Origin: a virus
Reading direction: 5' to 3' (one strand)
IMG/VR virus record: IMGVR_UViG_3300035698_002903
Span: 1-45,187 of that record
DNA: 45,187 nucleotides
Made by a program: the position numbers and the translations under genes. The notes below the pieces were generated by a model. That model saw only the letters and a list, made by a program, of their open reading frames with translations. It had not been told where the DNA came from and did not search any database. Within the stretch, counting starts at the first letter, position 1. The number at the start of each line of letters is the position of its first letter. This document shows, piece by piece, positions 4,184-33,057 of this stretch.

Positions 4184-6208
4184 ATGCAAATAGACTACCT
4201 AGAATTAGGATATGACAGCCATTTACAAAGATCAATCTTTGATACTGTTGGCGAATTTGAGTCTAACGCGCTTACTCAGAATGGTGTAAGTTCAATGTTT
4301 CCTGCTGGTAGCATACCTTATTCTAGTACAGCATTAGCAGAATTAGTCCCTAATGAAGATATACAAACACAAGACTTTGTAACAGGCGTAAGCGGTTGGC
4401 AAATACAAGGCGAGGGTACGGCTGAATTTAACGATGTTACTATAAGGGGAACAATATACGCTACTCTAGGAGAGATAGGAGGATGGAGTATTGACGCAAC
4501 AAGGATATATTCAACTAATATAGATATTGATAGCGACAATGAATGGATCAAGAGTACGAATTATGTAACAGGAGTTTCTGGGTTTTCAATAAGTGCTGAT
4601 CTAGTTGAGGCAGAAAATATAATTGCAAGAGGAATTCTTAAGGGGACTACATTCCAATATGATGTAGTTTCTGCGGTAGGCGGACAACTTTTAGTGAGCA
4701 ATGCAGATGTATTAGATAGCGATATGACAGCTCTTGATGCTTCAACATTGACTACTAAGGCTACGACTACTTGGGCTGTAAATGATATGCTTTTAATTCA
4801 AGCCATTACGGCTTCAGGAATAGAGGTTGAATATTTGAGAATAACTAACATAGCATCAGCCCCTACATATACCGTTACAAGAGACCTAAAAGGTGATTAT
4901 ACTTCAAATGTTAATCCTATCTGGCAAGCAGGAACAACAATTTCAAAGATAGGGGAAAGTGACGGAGCAGCAACTTATGCAGGAGGATGGCTACGATTAT
5001 ATGGAGAAGGAACGAACAGTCCTTATTATTCAGTCTTTTCCCGAACAGGCGTAGCTTATAACGCTTACTCAGAAAGAGTTAGGCTAGGAAACCTAAATGG
5101 TATAGGAGGACAGTCCTCTGATACATACGGGATATTCATGGGTGATTTTTCAACAGGACAATATGCTATGTATGATGATGTGAGTGGGGACTTTGTTGTT
5201 AATGGATCAAGTCTTTTGAACGAAGACATCTTTGGTGACGGATCAGATGGCGATGTAACGATAAGTGCAAACACTACACTTGCTGGAGATATGTATTATG
5301 ATAATCTAACTGTAGATAGTGGGAAAATTTTAGACATTGGCGGGTATAGGATTTTCGTAAAAGGAATACTAACTAATAATGGAACTATCCAAAGAGATGG
5401 AAATGATGGAGGAGATGCAACTGGCCCATTGAGTGCTGGACGAGGAGCTGCTGCAATCGCTTTAGCTTCTGGATCTTTAGTAGGTGCTTTGGCTGGTGCA
5501 ATAGGTGGTGCAGGTGGCACAAACGGAATAGGGGGGATTGGTTCGCCTGGAGAAAGCCCAACTGCTGCAATAAGAGCTTATAGAGATGGTAAGTATGGAG
5601 CTGCTGGTGGAAATGGTGGAGCAATTACCCCAACTATTGCTGGTGGAGCTGGTGGAGTAGGGAACACGGCAGTAAATCCAGTTCTTGAAATAAGAACATC
5701 AATATTTGCTTTAATACAGGTTGAGTTTACTCCTGACATGGATTCTGCAATGGGAGCTATTTATAGTGTTTTAAGTTGTGATGGAGGCGGAAGTGGAGGA
5801 GGAGGAGGAGCTGGATATACTAATTTTTCTGGAAATGGCGGTGGCGGCGGTGGTGGTGGTAGTGCTACGACTGGAGGAACTGTTTCTATATTTGCAAGGG
5901 AAATAATAAACACAGGAACTATTTCTTCCAATGGAGGAAAAGGTGGTGATGGTGCTGATGGTGAAGATGCGGTAAGTGCTAATCCTGCTGGTGGCGGTGG
6001 TGGTGGCGGTGGAGCTGCTGGTGGTGGTGGTGGTTTTGTAATCTTAGTTTATGCAAAAATCACAAACACAGGAACAATTTCTGCTAGTGGAGGACTTAAA
6101 GGACTTGGTGGAACAAAAGGAGTTGGAGTGAATGGATCTTCTGATGGACTAGATGGAAGTGATGGGAATGATGGAAATGATGGAGAAGTAATAACCCTAC
6201 AAGTATGA
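4184..6208 (+). CDS. Tail fibre/adhesin with polyglycine-rich C-terminal domain
   Basis: 674 residues. Residues ~1-330 have fibre-like beta repeats: two related modules near GVSGWQIQGEGTAEF and GVSGFSISADLVEAE, and GEIGGWSIDATRIYS. Residues ~350-420 are a beta-helix-like stretch. From about residue 425 to the end there are many glycine runs, up to eight in a row, separated by short strand segments such as TNTGTISSNGG. Glycine-rich motifs of this kind build the polyglycine-II sandwich of receptor-binding adhesins such as T2-type gp38. The local base composition is richer in G than in neighbouring genes. The stop TGA overlaps the next ATG. It probably binds the host surface. Confidence 0.65.
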   Translation: MQIDYLELGYDSHLQRSIFDTVGEFESNALTQNGVSSMFPAGSIPYSSTALAELVPNEDIQTQDFVTGVSGWQIQGEGTAEFNDVTIRGTIYATLGEIGGWSIDATRIYSTNIDIDSDNEWIKSTNYVTGVSGFSISADLVEAENIIARGILKGTTFQYDVVSAVGGQLLVSNADVLDSDMTALDASTLTTKATTTWAVNDMLLIQAITASGIEVEYLRITNIASAPTYTVTRDLKGDYTSNVNPIWQAGTTISKIGESDGAATYAGGWLRLYGEGTNSPYYSVFSRTGVAYNAYSERVRLGNLNGIGGQSSDTYGIFMGDFSTGQYAMYDDVSGDFVVNGSSLLNEDIFGDGSDGDVTISANTTLAGDMYYDNLTVDSGKILDIGGYRIFVKGILTNNGTIQRDGNDGGDATGPLSAGRGAAAIALASGSLVGALAGAIGGAGGTNGIGGIGSPGESPTAAIRAYRDGKYGAAGGNGGAITPTIAGGAGGVGNTAVNPVLEIRTSIFALIQVEFTPDMDSAMGAIYSVLSCDGGGSGGGGGAGYTNFSGNGGGGGGGGSATTGGTVSIFAREIINTGTISSNGGKGGDGADGEDAVSANPAGGGGGGGGAAGGGGGFVILVYAKITNTGTISASGGLKGLGGTKGVGVNGSSDGLDGSDGNDGNDGEVITLQV

Positions 6209-24929: not shown

Positions 24930-24940
24930 GACCTAATACA

Positions 24941-24977
24941 TGTTAAGTGTTAACGTGTATTTAACGTGTACTTAACA
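24941..24977. repeat. Operator-like palindrome with internal repeats
   Basis: TGTTAAGT (24941-24948) and ACTTAACA (24970-24977) are perfect inverted repeats. Between them TTAACGTGTA-type units occur twice (24950-24959 and 24961-24970). The core TTAAC appears in both orientations. Typical of an operator bound by a dimeric repressor, or of a small iteron-type origin. Confidence 0.55.
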
Positions 24978-25062
24978 TAGCTAATCTATCCAATATAGAG
25001 ACTGGAGTATTCGTGGAGATATGTTTGAGTATATATAGTACATACTGTTTTAAAACTTACTA

Positions 25063-25091
25063 TTGCTTTTTCTGTTACAACGTGATATTGT
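25063..25091 (+). promoter_or_regulatory. Candidate rightward promoter before the replication gene
   Basis: TTGCTT (25063-25068), 17-base spacer, TATTGT (25086-25091). The -35 box matches four of six, the -10 box four of six. It would give a leader of roughly 120 bases that contains the interlocked stems before ATG 25222. Moderate fit only. Confidence 0.35.
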
Positions 25092-25110: not shown

Positions 25111-25212
25111 ACTACACGACATGAAAATCAATTTAGAACACAGATTATAGACTCACACCTGCTTGGCTTGTCGTGTAGTACTTCTAGCTGAGTGGGTGCG
25201 AGTTTATAATCT
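25111..25212 (+). promoter_or_regulatory. Interlocked inverted repeats (pseudoknot-type leader) before the replication gene
   Basis: Arm A ACTACACGACA (25111-25121) pairs perfectly with TGTCGTGTAGT (25169-25179). Arm B AGATTATAGACTCACACC (25142-25159) pairs with GGTGCGAGTTTATAATCT (25195-25212), 18 positions with one G-U and one A-C. The order A-B-A'-B' is that of a pseudoknot. The last arm ends just before AAAAGG, the only Shine-Dalgarno-like site of note, and the ATG at 25222. A regulatory role on initiator translation is inferred. Confidence 0.55.
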
Positions 25213-25221
25213 AAAAGGATA

Positions 25222-25917
25222 ATGACAATAGACTATGGGTGTATATTACTTGCCCGAAAGATACAGAGTAGTGAGATTTGGAAAAAGCCAGCAGATTGGC
25301 TGAAGATCTGGGTATATCTTCTACAAGAGGTGAACCACCAAGACAATAAGCTGTTTAAGAGAGGAGAGAACCTTTTTAACTATAAGGATGTTGCTAGGGA
25401 GTGTGGTGTAAAATATAATTCTGTTGCTAAATTTATAAAATGGGCAAAATTGGCGACACTCGTGGCGACACACAAAACCACACGAGGAGTAGTCGTTAAG
25501 GTGCTTAACTATAACAAATACCAAACATTACAAAACTACAAAAGCGACACCAAAGGCGATACGGTTGGCGAAATAGAAGCGAAACAGAAGCGAAATAGAA
25601 GCGATACTATAACTAAAGAATGTAAGAATGAAAATACTACTACAGCAAAAACAGTTTTAAAAATTCTAAACCTATCTGGTAAAGAGAATCTTATTCCAGC
25701 AGTAGAGGACTTACTAGAAAGATATACTGATAAGGTCGTTAGGGATGTTGCTTCAAAGGTAGCTACAAAGTCTGTTGCTAATCCAGATGCTAGATGGACT
25801 ACATTTGTTAACTGGTGTGGATCTGAAAAAGCCAAGAGCACAACTAACGCTGATATTGCTACAATGACAAAAGAGGAGAAACTTGCTTATAAAAAAGAAA
25901 AATATAACAAACTATAA
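25222..25917 (+). CDS. Replication initiator / helicase-loader-like protein
   Basis: 231 residues. The first ~105 residues resemble the winged-helix N-terminal domain of phage replisome organisers: WKKPADWLKIWVYLLQEVNH, FKRGENLFNYKDVARECGVK as the helix-turn-helix part, then VVVKVLNYNKYQTLQNYK. A Lys/Thr-rich linker follows, and the last ~80 residues (LIPAVEDLLERYTDKVVRDV) resemble a short DnaD- or loader-type helical domain. It is followed one base later by the DnaB-like helicase. An AAAAGG site five bases before the ATG is unusual in this genome. It probably opens the origin and brings in the helicase. Confidence 0.65.
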   Translation: MTIDYGCILLARKIQSSEIWKKPADWLKIWVYLLQEVNHQDNKLFKRGENLFNYKDVARECGVKYNSVAKFIKWAKLATLVATHKTTRGVVVKVLNYNKYQTLQNYKSDTKGDTVGEIEAKQKRNRSDTITKECKNENTTTAKTVLKILNLSGKENLIPAVEDLLERYTDKVVRDVASKVATKSVANPDARWTTFVNWCGSEKAKSTTNADIATMTKEEKLAYKKEKYNKL

Positions 25918-25918
25918 C

Positions 25919-27118
25919 ATGCTACATTCAAAACCAGAGGTTGAGTATTCAATGATTGCCACTCTCATAATGAACCCTGATCTCTTAAAAGTTCTTCCAG
26001 TAAAAGAAGAACACTTCTACTTAGTCAACAACAGAACAGCTCTTAGTGTCCTGAAAAAGATGCAGAGCAATGGAGAGGAGATAAACCTTGTTAGCTTCGG
26101 ATCTAGGTTTTATGATGAAGGTGGTAAAATATCAGAGATAAACACCCTATTCAATACAGACGATCATTGGTCATCTTTGTTTGGCGAAACATATTTAAGA
26201 CAGCTATCTGATGAGTTGGTAAAAAGAAAGATAGTCCAGAAGTATGAAACATTCGTAGACGCTCCAAAGGAATTTATAGAGGAGGTTAAAAAGCTTGAAG
26301 ATGATTTTATAGAAAGCAAACCAAAGAACATAGGAGAGCTATACGATTCTTATGTTGAGGATTATAACGAAAGAAAAGAAAAGCTAAAGAACGGAGCAGT
26401 TGGAGTTATAACAGGATTCAAGATCATAGACGAGAAATGTTCTTTTGAAGAAGGGCATCTTGTTATCTTAGCGGCAAAGACAAGTGTAGGTAAAACTTCA
26501 TTAGCCTTGAATATCTGTGTAAATGCTTCAATGTTTGGATCTAATTGTTTATTCTTTAGTGCAGAGATGACAACAAAGGAGTTAATGAACAGAACATTTG
26601 CACAACTAACAGGAGCTTCATCTACAAAGTTTAAATATTCAAATGCAGATGCGGAGCTGGTTGCAGTAAAGAAAGAGATTGAAGCCTGTAGTGACAAGTT
26701 AAGCTTTATTGAAGCCGCTGGAATGACAAGTGAAGATATATGTAGAATGGCTAGAAAGAAACAGGATGTGGATTTGATAGTAGTTGACTACATCCAATAT
26801 TTAAAAGATTCAGTAAAGAACGGAACAAACAATGATAGGATTGGGAACATAACCAGAAACCTTAAAGCAGTAGCTAATGAGTTAAATTGCACAGTCTTGG
26901 CATTGTCACAGGTAAACAGAAACACAACAGGAGCACCAGAGCTTCATAACTTAAGAGATTCAGGAAACATTGAACAGGATGCAGACACAGTTTTAATCAT
27001 ACACAGAGAAGACAGGGAGTCCACAATGGCAGATCTGATTATTGCAAAGAACAGAAACGGACAAGTTTACTTTGATGGAGAGATACGGTTCAACCCAAAA
27101 TTAACTAAATTTTACTAA
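25919..27118 (+). CDS. dnaB: DnaB-type replicative helicase
   Basis: 399 residues from ATG 25919, one base after the previous stop; an upstream TTG in the same frame lies inside the previous gene and was not used. The N-terminal DnaB domain starts MLHSKPEVEYSMIATLI. RecA-like core: Walker A AAKTSVGKTSLALN (~residues 185-198), Walker B VDLIVVDYIQYL (~283-294), and the motif around LRDSGNIEQDADTVLIIHRE with the arginine-finger region. A hexamer that unwinds the phage replication fork. Slightly shorter than bacterial DnaB (~450-470), usual for phages. Confidence 0.9.
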   Translation: MLHSKPEVEYSMIATLIMNPDLLKVLPVKEEHFYLVNNRTALSVLKKMQSNGEEINLVSFGSRFYDEGGKISEINTLFNTDDHWSSLFGETYLRQLSDELVKRKIVQKYETFVDAPKEFIEEVKKLEDDFIESKPKNIGELYDSYVEDYNERKEKLKNGAVGVITGFKIIDEKCSFEEGHLVILAAKTSVGKTSLALNICVNASMFGSNCLFFSAEMTTKELMNRTFAQLTGASSTKFKYSNADAELVAVKKEIEACSDKLSFIEAAGMTSEDICRMARKKQDVDLIVVDYIQYLKDSVKNGTNNDRIGNITRNLKAVANELNCTVLALSQVNRNTTGAPELHNLRDSGNIEQDADTVLIIHREDRESTMADLIIAKNRNGQVYFDGEIRFNPKLTKFY

Positions 27119-28686: not shown

Positions 28687-28869
28687 CTAAACACACATGA
28701 ATAAAGAAGGTAGAAGACCTTGCAAAAAACAAATAGACATGATAGTATTTATATACTAATACGAAGCGATTTTCATTAGGAATGAGGGCGTTAAGGGGAG
28801 AAGAACTAAAATTTACAATGAGTATATTTGATCATCTTCTCCCTATAGCGTTTAAAACTAAAACTATGT

Positions 28870-30819: not shown

Positions 30820-33057
30820 ATGAAAAACAAAGAATTCCTAGATTTTAGTGAGTTAGCAGGGTTTCAGCCTAAACAACTAGAGGCGTGTAGAGCAGTCAGA
30901 TCACATGAATATATACTTTATGGAGGAGCTGCTGGAGGAGGCAAGAGCTACTGGTTAAGATGGGAAGCTGTAGCATTATTGATATATTATTATCAGAAGT
31001 ACGGATTTAAGGGAGTAAGATTAGGATTATTCTGTGAAGATTACGTAGCATTAGCTGATAGGCATTTAAGTAAAGTAGTATACGAGTTCCCACCATGGTT
31101 AGGTAAACTGAATAAGAGTAGTCATGAATTTACATTAGCACCAGATTTCGGTAGTGGAGTTATAGCGTTCAGGAATCTAGATGATCCTTCAAAATATTTA
31201 TCAAGTGAGTTTGTAGCTATACTTGTAGATGAGCTAACAATGAACGAACGACACGTATTTGATTTCCTTAACATGAGAAGAAGATGGGTAGGGATTGAAG
31301 ATACTAAATTCATTGGAGCTACTAATCCAGGAGGTAAAGGGCATGGATTCGTTAAGAAGCTGTGGATAGATAGAGATTTCAGCGATGAGACATTCAACCC
31401 TGATAAGTTTAAGTTCATACAGGCTAAGGCTAGTGATAATGCTTTCCTACCAGAAACTTACGAAGAACAGCTAGGTACATTACCAGCAGAGATGGTTAAA
31501 GCTTACAGAGACGGAGACTGGAATGTGTTTCAAGGACAATTCTTTACAGAGTGGAGCAGCGAGAGACATGTTATTGATCCGTTTGATATACCAGATAGCT
31601 GGACAAAGATAAGATGTATAGATTACGGATACGTTAATCCAGTAGCAGTATATTGGTTGGCAATAGACTATGATAGTAATGTGTATGTTTACAGAGAACT
31701 CTACGAATCAAGTCTAACATATAGTGAACTAGCACAAAGAATAGGAGAAATGACACCTAATACCGAAACAGTAGATTATACAGTAGCAGATTCGGATATG
31801 TTCTCAAAAACTCGTGATACAGGAGAATACGGACCAGATATAATGTCAGAACAAGGAATAGATATAATGAACGCTAACAAGGAACGTCTACCAGGTTGGA
31901 ATCTATTTAAGAGATATTTAAAAGAGGATAGGATAAAGTTCTTTAAAACCTGTGTAAATGCTGTTAGAACAATTCCTAACATGACATACCCACCACTTAA
32001 CAAGAGAGTATCTAATCCAGAAGATCTATATAAGACAGGAGGATTTGATGGCGATCATGCCTGCTTTGTAGGAACGACCAAGGTTCGGATGGCTAATTGT
32101 AAAGAGAAGCAAATAAAAGATATACAAATAGGAGAATATGTCGCTACCCCTAATGGTGCAAAAAAGGTAATTGCATCAGATTGTACGGGGATTAAACCTG
32201 TAATAAAAGTAAAGATGAGTAACAAAAGAAGTCTAATAGGAACAAAGAGTCACAACATTTATACTCCTAAAGGCAAAGTTCCTCTTGATTCTTTGCGTAT
32301 GTATGATATAGTTAATTCATGGAAGAAAGCATTATATTCAACAAGCAACGATACTACTTTGATGGGAAATACTACGTTCCCTGTGGAGGATGTGCAAATG
32401 GAAGGAAACGATTACATGTTGCAGTATGGGAGAATATTCATGGAGTTATCCCGAAAGGGTATTGCATACATCACCTTGATAATGACCCAAAAAACAACAA
32501 TATTGACAACCTCAAATGTATTGACAAGACCGAACATCTTAGCTTTCATGCAAAAGAAAAGTTTAAGGACAAAAAATGGGCTGAACAAAACAAAATACAC
32601 ATGGCTAAGATCAGACCTCTTGCAAAGAAATGGCATGCTTCTGAGGAGGGTAGAGAATGGCATAAGCAAAATAGTAAAAAGGCTTGGAAAAATAAGAAAT
32701 GGCATACTAAGTTTTGTCAAATCTGCAATAAGGAATATAAAACTCCTTTTCCAACAAGGTCTAAATATTGTGGAGATGTTTGTAAATCAAAAGCCCAATG
32801 TATTCGTAATAAGCAAGCAACAACTAGAAGGCGTGCAAAAAGTGTATAACATTACAGTAGAGGATGTTCATTGTTATTACGCAGAAGGTGTTTTAGTAGC
32901 AAACTGTGACTCAATCAGAATGGGACTAATGAGCTTACCAGATACACCTGTACTAGGTAGAGAGAAACCACCACGTAATCCATACGAGAATGATCCTACA
33001 AGCCCTTGGGCTAACAAGAATAAGAAATCAAGTTACACTAATATATATTCAAGCTAA
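30820..33057 (+). CDS. terL: Terminase large subunit with in-frame intein
   Basis: 745 codons; 464 residues after removal of the 281-residue intein, a normal length. ATPase: Walker A YGGAAGGGKS (residues ~34-43), Walker B AILVDE (133-138). RNase-H-type nuclease: IDYGY with Asp268, VADSD at 323-327, and the third acidic motif GDHA|CDSIRMG, which the intein splits between residues 414 and 696. Pumps DNA into the prohead and cuts it. The frame stays open through the intein, including 531 bases that also encode an HNH protein in the -1 frame. Activity requires protein splicing to rebuild the third nuclease motif. Confidence 0.9.
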   Translation: MKNKEFLDFSELAGFQPKQLEACRAVRSHEYILYGGAAGGGKSYWLRWEAVALLIYYYQKYGFKGVRLGLFCEDYVALADRHLSKVVYEFPPWLGKLNKSSHEFTLAPDFGSGVIAFRNLDDPSKYLSSEFVAILVDELTMNERHVFDFLNMRRRWVGIEDTKFIGATNPGGKGHGFVKKLWIDRDFSDETFNPDKFKFIQAKASDNAFLPETYEEQLGTLPAEMVKAYRDGDWNVFQGQFFTEWSSERHVIDPFDIPDSWTKIRCIDYGYVNPVAVYWLAIDYDSNVYVYRELYESSLTYSELAQRIGEMTPNTETVDYTVADSDMFSKTRDTGEYGPDIMSEQGIDIMNANKERLPGWNLFKRYLKEDRIKFFKTCVNAVRTIPNMTYPPLNKRVSNPEDLYKTGGFDGDHACFVGTTKVRMANCKEKQIKDIQIGEYVATPNGAKKVIASDCTGIKPVIKVKMSNKRSLIGTKSHNIYTPKGKVPLDSLRMYDIVNSWKKALYSTSNDTTLMGNTTFPVEDVQMEGNDYMLQYGRIFMELSRKGIAYITLIMTQKTTILTTSNVLTRPNILAFMQKKSLRTKNGLNKTKYTWLRSDLLQRNGMLLRRVENGISKIVKRLGKIRNGILSFVKSAIRNIKLLFQQGLNIVEMFVNQKPNVFVISKQQLEGVQKVYNITVEDVHCYYAEGVLVANCDSIRMGLMSLPDTPVLGREKPPRNPYENDPTSPWANKNKKSSYTNIYSS
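32062..32904 (+). mobile_element. Intein in the terminase large subunit
   Basis: 281 residues (415-695 of the reading frame). Block A starts with Cys: CFVGTTKVRM and QIKDIQIGEYVATPNG. Block B is GTKSHNIYTPKG with the expected Thr and His. Blocks F/G are VYNITVEDVHCYYAEGVLVA then Asn695, with Cys696 as the +1 residue. The penultimate residue is Ala rather than the usual His. The joint falls inside the conserved nuclease motif, a typical intein site. The linker between B and F, about residues 500-675, reads as non-homing-endonuclease sequence in this frame because the endonuclease is coded in the -1 frame. Confidence 0.85.
32319..32849 (+). CDS. HNH homing endonuclease nested out of frame inside the intein
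   Basis: 176 residues in the -1 frame relative to terL, ATG 32319 to TAA 32847-32849. RLHVAVWENIHGVIPKGYCI then HHLDNDPKNNNIDNLKCI is an HNH core of the homing type (His-His, Asn, Asn). Basic repeats follow (KKWAEQNKIHMAKIRPLAKK; KKAWKNKKWHTKF), and the C-terminus has a zinc finger FCQICNKEYKTP with YCGDVCKS. It fills the usual endonuclease slot between intein blocks B and F, and its stop lies at the first residue of block F. An in-frame stop lies just before the ATG (32313-32315), so it must start independently. No Shine-Dalgarno is seen. Confidence 0.85.
   Translation: MEESIIFNKQRYYFDGKYYVPCGGCANGRKRLHVAVWENIHGVIPKGYCIHHLDNDPKNNNIDNLKCIDKTEHLSFHAKEKFKDKKWAEQNKIHMAKIRPLAKKWHASEEGREWHKQNSKKAWKNKKWHTKFCQICNKEYKTPFPTRSKYCGDVCKSKAQCIRNKQATTRRRAKSV

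Follow-up and report, generated by a model that had tools for sequence, protein, structure and literature searches.

Interlocked inverted repeats recur in the leaders of phage replication operons and may act as a co-transcriptional attenuator

The leader of the replication operon

The window, i.e., the whole stretch of DNA analyzed here, is an IMG/VR virus record of 45,187 bases, in which a DnaD-like helicase loader gene is followed by the gene for a DnaB-like replicative helicase. A set of interlocked inverted repeats lies directly upstream of the loader gene and, since the genes to the left of it run in the opposite direction, this element is the leader of a rightward replication operon. The features of the region are as follows:

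25063-25091, plus strand: putative leader promoter, with TTGCTT (25063-25068), a 17-nt spacer and TG-A-TATTGT, an extended -10 at 25086-25091
25111-25121, plus strand: A (ACTACACGACA), 5′ strand of the putative pseudoknot helix, complementary to 25169-25179 at 11 of 11 positions and, of 27 upstream regions tested, the one that pairs best with its own loop
25121-25150, plus strand: short leader frame, ATG...TAG (MKINLEHRL), whose start overlaps the end of A and whose stop lies inside the 5′ arm of B
25142-25168, plus strand: B, 5′ arm of a 27-bp hairpin, from pairing and fold
25169-25179, plus strand: A′, the apical-loop stretch that pairs with A, from complementarity
25186-25212, plus strand: B′, 3′ arm of the hairpin, from pairing and fold, U-rich towards its outer end (UUUAUAAUCU)
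25213-25219, plus strand: AAAAGGA, the predicted ribosome binding site of the initiator gene, outside the hairpin
25222-25917, plus strand: DnaD-like helicase loader (PHROG 2514, E = 3.9e-13)
25919-27118, plus strand: DnaB-like replicative helicase (PF03796)
28720-28853, plus strand: a second such element, a weaker candidate, equalled by 0 of 100 shuffles of this region

The first-pass annotation had reported two interlocked pairs at this site, A with A′ (11 of 11) and B with B′ (18 positions, with one G-U and one A-C), ending directly before AAAAGG and the ATG at 25222, and our analysis reproduced both pairs and the position of their end. The paired segments follow the order A-B-A′-B′, with A lying 20 nt upstream of B. 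The pairing of B with B′ stood, but its length did not: beyond the core of 25142-25159 against 25195-25212, it extends inwards without gaps to 27 positions (25142-25168 and 25186-25212), made up of 21 Watson-Crick pairs, 5 G-U and 1 A-C, and A′ therefore lies within the 17-nt apical loop of one long hairpin. The fold of this hairpin gave a z-score of -3.55, with 1 of 200 shuffles equally good. When the window was searched with our own scanner, which uses Turner-type stacks, the element reached a summed stacking score of -61.1 kcal/mol and was the top A-B-A′-B′ match with both strands considered, the minus strand at the same site scoring -49.2. When the whole 45-kb window was dinucleotide-shuffled 400 times, this value was never reached (best, -51.0; median, -38.1), in agreement with the earlier claim that both pairs are unlikely to have arisen by chance.

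The window copy is nevertheless atypical in its weak promoter, its 9-codon frame and its weak U-tract. The predicted transcription start is at approximately 25098, and while the promoter score is at background, with 32% of random windows scoring as high, its position agrees with that of the strong promoters of relatives. The frame stops 74 nt before the gene, whereas the frames of relatives commonly have 25-44 codons; the U-tract contains at most 5 U in 8, and no classical terminator was called in the window leader. Because promoter, frame and U-tract are all weak, this copy may control translation or stability rather than termination. The second candidate has a promoter-like site (TTGCAA-17-TAGTAT, 28720-28748), an A segment at 28751-28757 and a 19-position hairpin ending at 28853, together with a frame from 28782 that is open through the hairpin and in frame with the next ATG (28866).

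Two other features of the window were noted. At 24940-24978, between the divergent operons, a direct repeat (TTAACGTGTAT/TTAACGTGTAC) lies inside an inverted pair (ATGTTAAGT/ACTTAACAT) and is an operator or origin candidate. The gene for the terminase large subunit (30820-33057) seems to carry an intein, with Hom_end_hint and Intein_splicing matches at residues 415-695 that are below the curated cut-offs.

Recurrence of the element and the strand under selection

Searches with the loader yielded 51 non-redundant loci, the window included, after 14 repeats had been dropped and L011-L015 and four cultured phages had been excluded. A curated A-B-A′-B′ element is present at 24 of these 51 loci, with sequences that are unrelated to one another, and as L006 has two, the set comprises 25 elements. 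Each directly precedes either the loader gene or the gene that opens its operon, often an HNH gene. Curation combined the scanner with inspection by eye, by which the L046 element and the true A of L026 were found; the scanner alone, at -44 or better, identified 17 of 41 sense leaders, compared to none of 410 shuffles and 5 of the 41 antisense leaders. The other 27 loci are without a curated element; several of these have the loader gene behind another gene, and two (L072 and L039) have a promoter-like leader but no element detectable by eye. When whole records were ranked, the element was the best match on either strand in the window and in G006, G012, G013 and G018, second in G007, G019 and G016, and third in G022, the match in G016 and G022 being on the antisense strand. 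At L008 and L020 (the latter from record G022), the antisense strand scores better than the sense strand.

The elements have no conserved sequence core. The leaders of the window and of L020 are unrelated even though the N-termini of their DnaD-like proteins are 77% identical over 132 aa, and the L020 leader stands before a different gene (HNH). No alignable homologues of the window element were found in the data searched, the single-protein search gave one relative, and the identical copies L020/L021 and L049-L054 offer no variation. A 17-mer of the window hairpin matched two contigs, but these were unrelated chance matches. The distant relatives L011-L015, scanned whole, contained nothing comparable; weak relatives of the loader occur in 11 records of cultured phages, and in the four that were inspected the gene lies within an operon.

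Several individual leaders have features of their own. The ribosome binding site GGAG pairs with an upstream hairpin loop in L038 (2725-2806) and L044 (2323-2394), and in L020 (2435-2562) the ATG behind the element is directly preceded by a third A-like copy (AACCCATCAAGC). Before other genes, very compact perfect A-B-A′-B′ repeats are found just upstream of G012:2628 (L204) and G006:9991 (L200), with 11+10 bp and 7+9 bp, respectively, and gaps of 1-5 nt. L031 and L032 have mutually similar leaders (CTAATTTTAAGGTGA ... GTTATTAATAAT) approximately 150 nt before the loader, with no A-B-A′-B′ order, which are possibly another structured RNA.

The A:A′ helix was also tested by itself. In 18 of 27 elements, the loop paired better with the actual upstream sequence than with shuffled versions of it (p ≤ 0.05; window, p = 0.003), while in L037, L048, L049, L055, L058, L061, L071, L026 and L046, A:A′ alone was no better than the shuffles (p > 0.1). 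The combined p of 3e-17 is inflated, as the set was selected partly on A:A′. By a simple distance estimate, the linker between A and B is too short to allow A:A′ together with the full B stem in 11 of 25 elements, which indicates that there the two are alternative or partial states and that the outer, U-rich part of B:B′, at the least, is in competition with A:A′.

The strand on which selection acts can be read from the mismatches, because a G-U pair in one RNA strand becomes an A-C mismatch in its complement. Under a strand-neutral scoring that made no distinction between G-U and A-C, 64 G-U and 21 A-C were counted in the best stems of the 25 regions that contain elements (p = 3e-6), with 18 elements having more G-U and 1 having more A-C, compared to 201 G-U and 207 A-C in random windows of the same loci. 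This excess indicates that selection acts on the gene-sense RNA, and argues against both a DNA structure and an antisense RNA of the same fold. Together with the recurrence of the topology at DnaD-like loci, it upholds the initial description of the site as a pseudoknot-type leader RNA of a replication initiator operon.

The same arrangement is found before initiators that are not homologous to the DnaD-like loader, namely in L151 (HTH_36 / PHROG 270 initiator) and L090 (Phage_rep_O, PF04492). In L151, the A helix has 12 bp and the hairpin 31 positions, a TTGACA promoter is present, and the stop of a 38-codon frame overlaps the initiator gene's start; L223, a relative of L151 (46%), is without the element. 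Both L151 and L090 belong to the phages found through DnaB only; of 55 such phages, 9 reach -44, a level that shuffles attain at a rate of 9%. Most of the eleven DnaB-only candidates listed were rejected as GC-rich coding sequence, and among these eleven only L090 has, as does L151, the promoter, the frame and the hairpin.

Some of the records contain hints of their hosts. At a position where glycine is invariant in relatives, L008 has UGA, and the loader contains 4 in-frame UGA in both the L008 record and the L071 record, as would fit Gracilibacteria/Absconditabacteria (code 25). A 222-kb contig of a Parcubacteria MAG carries one relative in which the element is absent; the loader gene occurs in 2 of 379 genomes of that phylum, and in one of the two (L199) the scanner found nothing at -40 or better. 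Separately, the 74-kb viral contig of L031 has a tmRNA gene (5611-5910) with a 32-residue tag (AKSNALTQSDEEFISKYAMSTTNKIYQHNFIN), beside tRNA-Ala and tRNA-Lys.

Promoters, U-tracts and leader frames, and a proposed mechanism

Sigma70-like promoters are enriched 22-90 nt before A, with a median score of 13.0 compared to 10.4 in random windows (p = 4e-13), and the predicted starts lie between 41 nt upstream of A and 6 nt within it. B′ is U-rich: at least 6 U in 8 are found at or behind it in 20 of 25 elements (background, 14%), and a run of 5 or more U in 16 of 25 (background, 6%). In many relatives, B/B′ thus resembles an intrinsic terminator whose loop is unusually large.

Leader frames were examined in 27 elements, i.e., the 25 described above plus L151 and L090; the frames were noticed and then tested on the same set, the selection of which made no use of frames. 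An ATG lies between the predicted start and B in 24 of the 27. The frame is open into or through B′ in 15 of these 24, where 4.8 would be expected from shuffles and none of 200,000 simulations gave as many, and all 15 open frames stop between -29 and +16 nt from the start of the next gene. The median length is 31.5 codons, compared to 7.5 and 7.0 for the other frames. In the remaining 9 of 24, the frame does not run through the hairpin.

Our leading reading, to which we give a little less than even confidence, is that the element is a sense-strand leader RNA that would act as a co-transcriptional attenuator of the replication operon, set by translation of the leader frame and combined with a pseudoknot. 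RNA polymerase would start 0-40 nt before A, and while A-B-A′-B′ is being transcribed, a ribosome may load at the short frame that starts in or beside A. A loaded ribosome would keep A from A′ and, being on or moving through B, would prevent the hairpin, so that transcription continues; in many relatives, where the initiator gene starts within or next to the end of the frame, re-initiation at that start would also allow expression to continue. Should A′ emerge before a ribosome has loaded, A:A′ would cover the frame's start, and B:B′ would fold into the hairpin, which resembles a terminator in most relatives, and would stop or reduce expression. Translation of the frame, termination at the hairpin, the block of loading by A:A′ and the direction of the switch are all inferred, and the window copy, with its short frame and weak U-tract, is presumed to work in the same way.

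The nearest parallel for the arrangement of frame and terminator is the pyrBI operon of E. coli, in which the leader frame (pyrL) spans an intrinsic terminator and a closely following ribosome prevents the hairpin (PMC5021804, PMC4824070). In attenuators of the pyrBI type, a promoter is followed by a leader frame that traverses the terminator, the terminator is a GC-rich stem with a U-run behind it that precedes the first structural gene, and pausing in the leader is sensitive to UTP. A frame of this kind is seen in 15 of the 24 elements with an ATG, whereas that of the window has 9 codons and stops in B; 20 of 25 elements reach 6 U in 8 or more at B′, whereas the window has at most 5 in 8. 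In contrast to pyrBI, the frames of the elements start almost at the 5′ end of the RNA, and the genes are phage replication genes. We know of no pseudoknot in pyrBI that closes over the start of the leader frame. Among the literature examined, the closest phage case is IsrK-orf45-anrP of prophage Gifsy-1, a leader RNA with its own terminator, translational coupling and alternative RNA structures, and with a small upstream frame that varies in its amino acids and has a stop overlapping the start that follows (PMC4825925). It differs in that IsrK acts in trans, that the terminator precedes the frame and that the gene is a different one; the available text describes no A-B-A′-B′ leader and does not contain the word pseudoknot (PMC4825925). 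We found no title or abstract in the open-access literature describing such leaders in these phages.

Alternative readings and the wider class

The alternative that survives best, although we consider it rather unlikely for the elements as a whole, is that the structure in front of the ribosome binding site is static and serves translation or stability, with neither termination nor a leader frame involved; it would protect the 5′ end of the mRNA or would activate or limit initiation at the initiator gene, like the RepZ pseudoknot of ColIb-P9. The window and L010 would fit this, having a weak U-tract and a free ribosome binding site directly behind the hairpin, as would L038 and L044, where the Shine-Dalgarno-like GGAG is itself paired with an upstream loop. 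RepZ/Inc-RNA of ColIb-P9 and the I-complex plasmids is described as a pseudoknot in the leader of a replication initiator, with a leader peptide and coupling (PMC10724649), and the window likewise has an A-B-A′-B′ pseudoknot in the leader of a DnaD-like replication gene. There, however, an antisense RNA and activation proximal to the Shine-Dalgarno sequence are central, whereas antisense promoters near the elements are close to background, and the loop of the elements pairs with an upstream rather than a downstream stretch. A 5′ leader pseudoknot also decides the translation of the timP mRNA, but this is a toxin mRNA with an antitoxin RNA and, in the available text, no terminator (PMC11228461). 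The U-rich 3′ arms and the frames that are open through the hairpin point instead to termination and translation in most relatives. For the window copy, control of translation or stability is a serious rival to attenuation.

A second alternative is that the leader acts in trans. In phage P4 (seqA/seqB/seqC and CI RNA) and in P1/P7 (C4 RNA), intramolecular complementarity in the leader controls a replication or antirepressor operon by termination, and in P4 it is the replication operon that is controlled by a leader RNA with interlocked complementarity. By analogy, a terminated RNA of 100 nt would pair via A or A′ with the nascent leaders of phages of the same type and so set copy number or superinfection immunity, which we regard as distinctly improbable. 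The precedent of P4 speaks for it, as do the third A-like copy before the next ATG in L020 and the fact that A/A′ are wholly different in the window and L020 despite the 77% identity of the loaders, as would be expected of specificity determinants; replacement explains that difference equally well, though, because the L020 leader precedes a different gene. Furthermore, A-like copies in the window are at chance (10 matches with up to 2 mismatches, compared to 9.2 expected). The two target copies of the P4/C4 type (seqA and seqC) have no counterpart, only one A copy being above chance in the window and a further A-like copy being found in L020 alone. No CI-like processed RNA or extra complementary copies are evident for the elements, and their sequences are unrelated to those of P4 and P1/P7.

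Much less probable is a riboswitch-like RNA that binds a ligand or protein to control the initiator. The element does lie in a leader, and pseudoknots are common in riboswitches. However, there is no conserved core, and Rfam 15 at the gathering score gave 0 matches in the window and only tRNA and tmRNA in 20 relatives, while lax thresholds gave matches at chance level only; the small ligand first suggested for this site consequently finds no backing.

We attach still lower probability to a DNA structure at the replication origin, such as a cruciform or initiator binding sites, which had also been proposed. Its position is suggestive, as the element is intergenic between divergent operons and near a GC skew switch, and the repeats at 24940-24978 are close by. 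A DNA-level constraint would not, however, be expected to produce 64 G-U against 21 A-C, and the 27-bp stem is weaker on the other strand. An antisense-RNA regulated leader of the ColE1, R1 or I-complex plasmid type, the remaining idea of the first-pass annotation, appears just as improbable. A weak promoter-like site is present on the minus strand (25228-25201), but the scan gave 2 such sites where 2.5 were expected, and antisense promoters behind the 25 elements are hardly enriched (median 10.9 compared to 10.4 in the background, p = 0.02; sense promoters, 13.0); moreover, the G-U pairs of the sense strand would become A-C mismatches in an antisense RNA. TIGR arrays were dismissed, no array being present. 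Finally, that the element is just a common terminator or hairpin whose partner arose by chance has negligible probability, for although terminators alone raise the scanner score, and 27 of 157 other gene starts in nine whole records, a set that includes plain terminators, pass 3 of 100 shuffles, none of the 400 whole-window shuffles matched the element, which recurs before orthologous genes.

Returning to attenuation by leader-frame translation, a broader version, which we put forward as possible but doubtful, is that these leaders form a widespread, sequence-free class of phage RNAs in which the replication operon depends on a race for a ribosome, in hosts that have no known regulation of this type. 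The nearly leaderless mini frame would have to capture a ribosome within 50-80 nt, before the polymerase reaches A′; if the race is lost, the pseudoknot would shut the frame and the terminator would stop the replication operon. Replication would then start only in cells with free translation capacity, and some of the hosts concerned would read UGA as glycine, as in Gracilibacteria/Absconditabacteria. It is pairing rather than sequence that defines the topology, and RNA searches that rely on sequence, Rfam among them, are therefore blind to such a class; if the mechanism is as proposed, the combination of a promoter, a near-leaderless frame and interlocked repeats would provide a recipe for finding more.

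Attenuation by a leader frame is known mainly from biosynthetic operons of cultured bacteria. The topology described above, which is defined by pairing, recurs before non-homologous replication initiators of uncultured phages. If the proposed mechanism is true, it would be a simple device that ties the decision of a phage to replicate to the translation capacity of its host.
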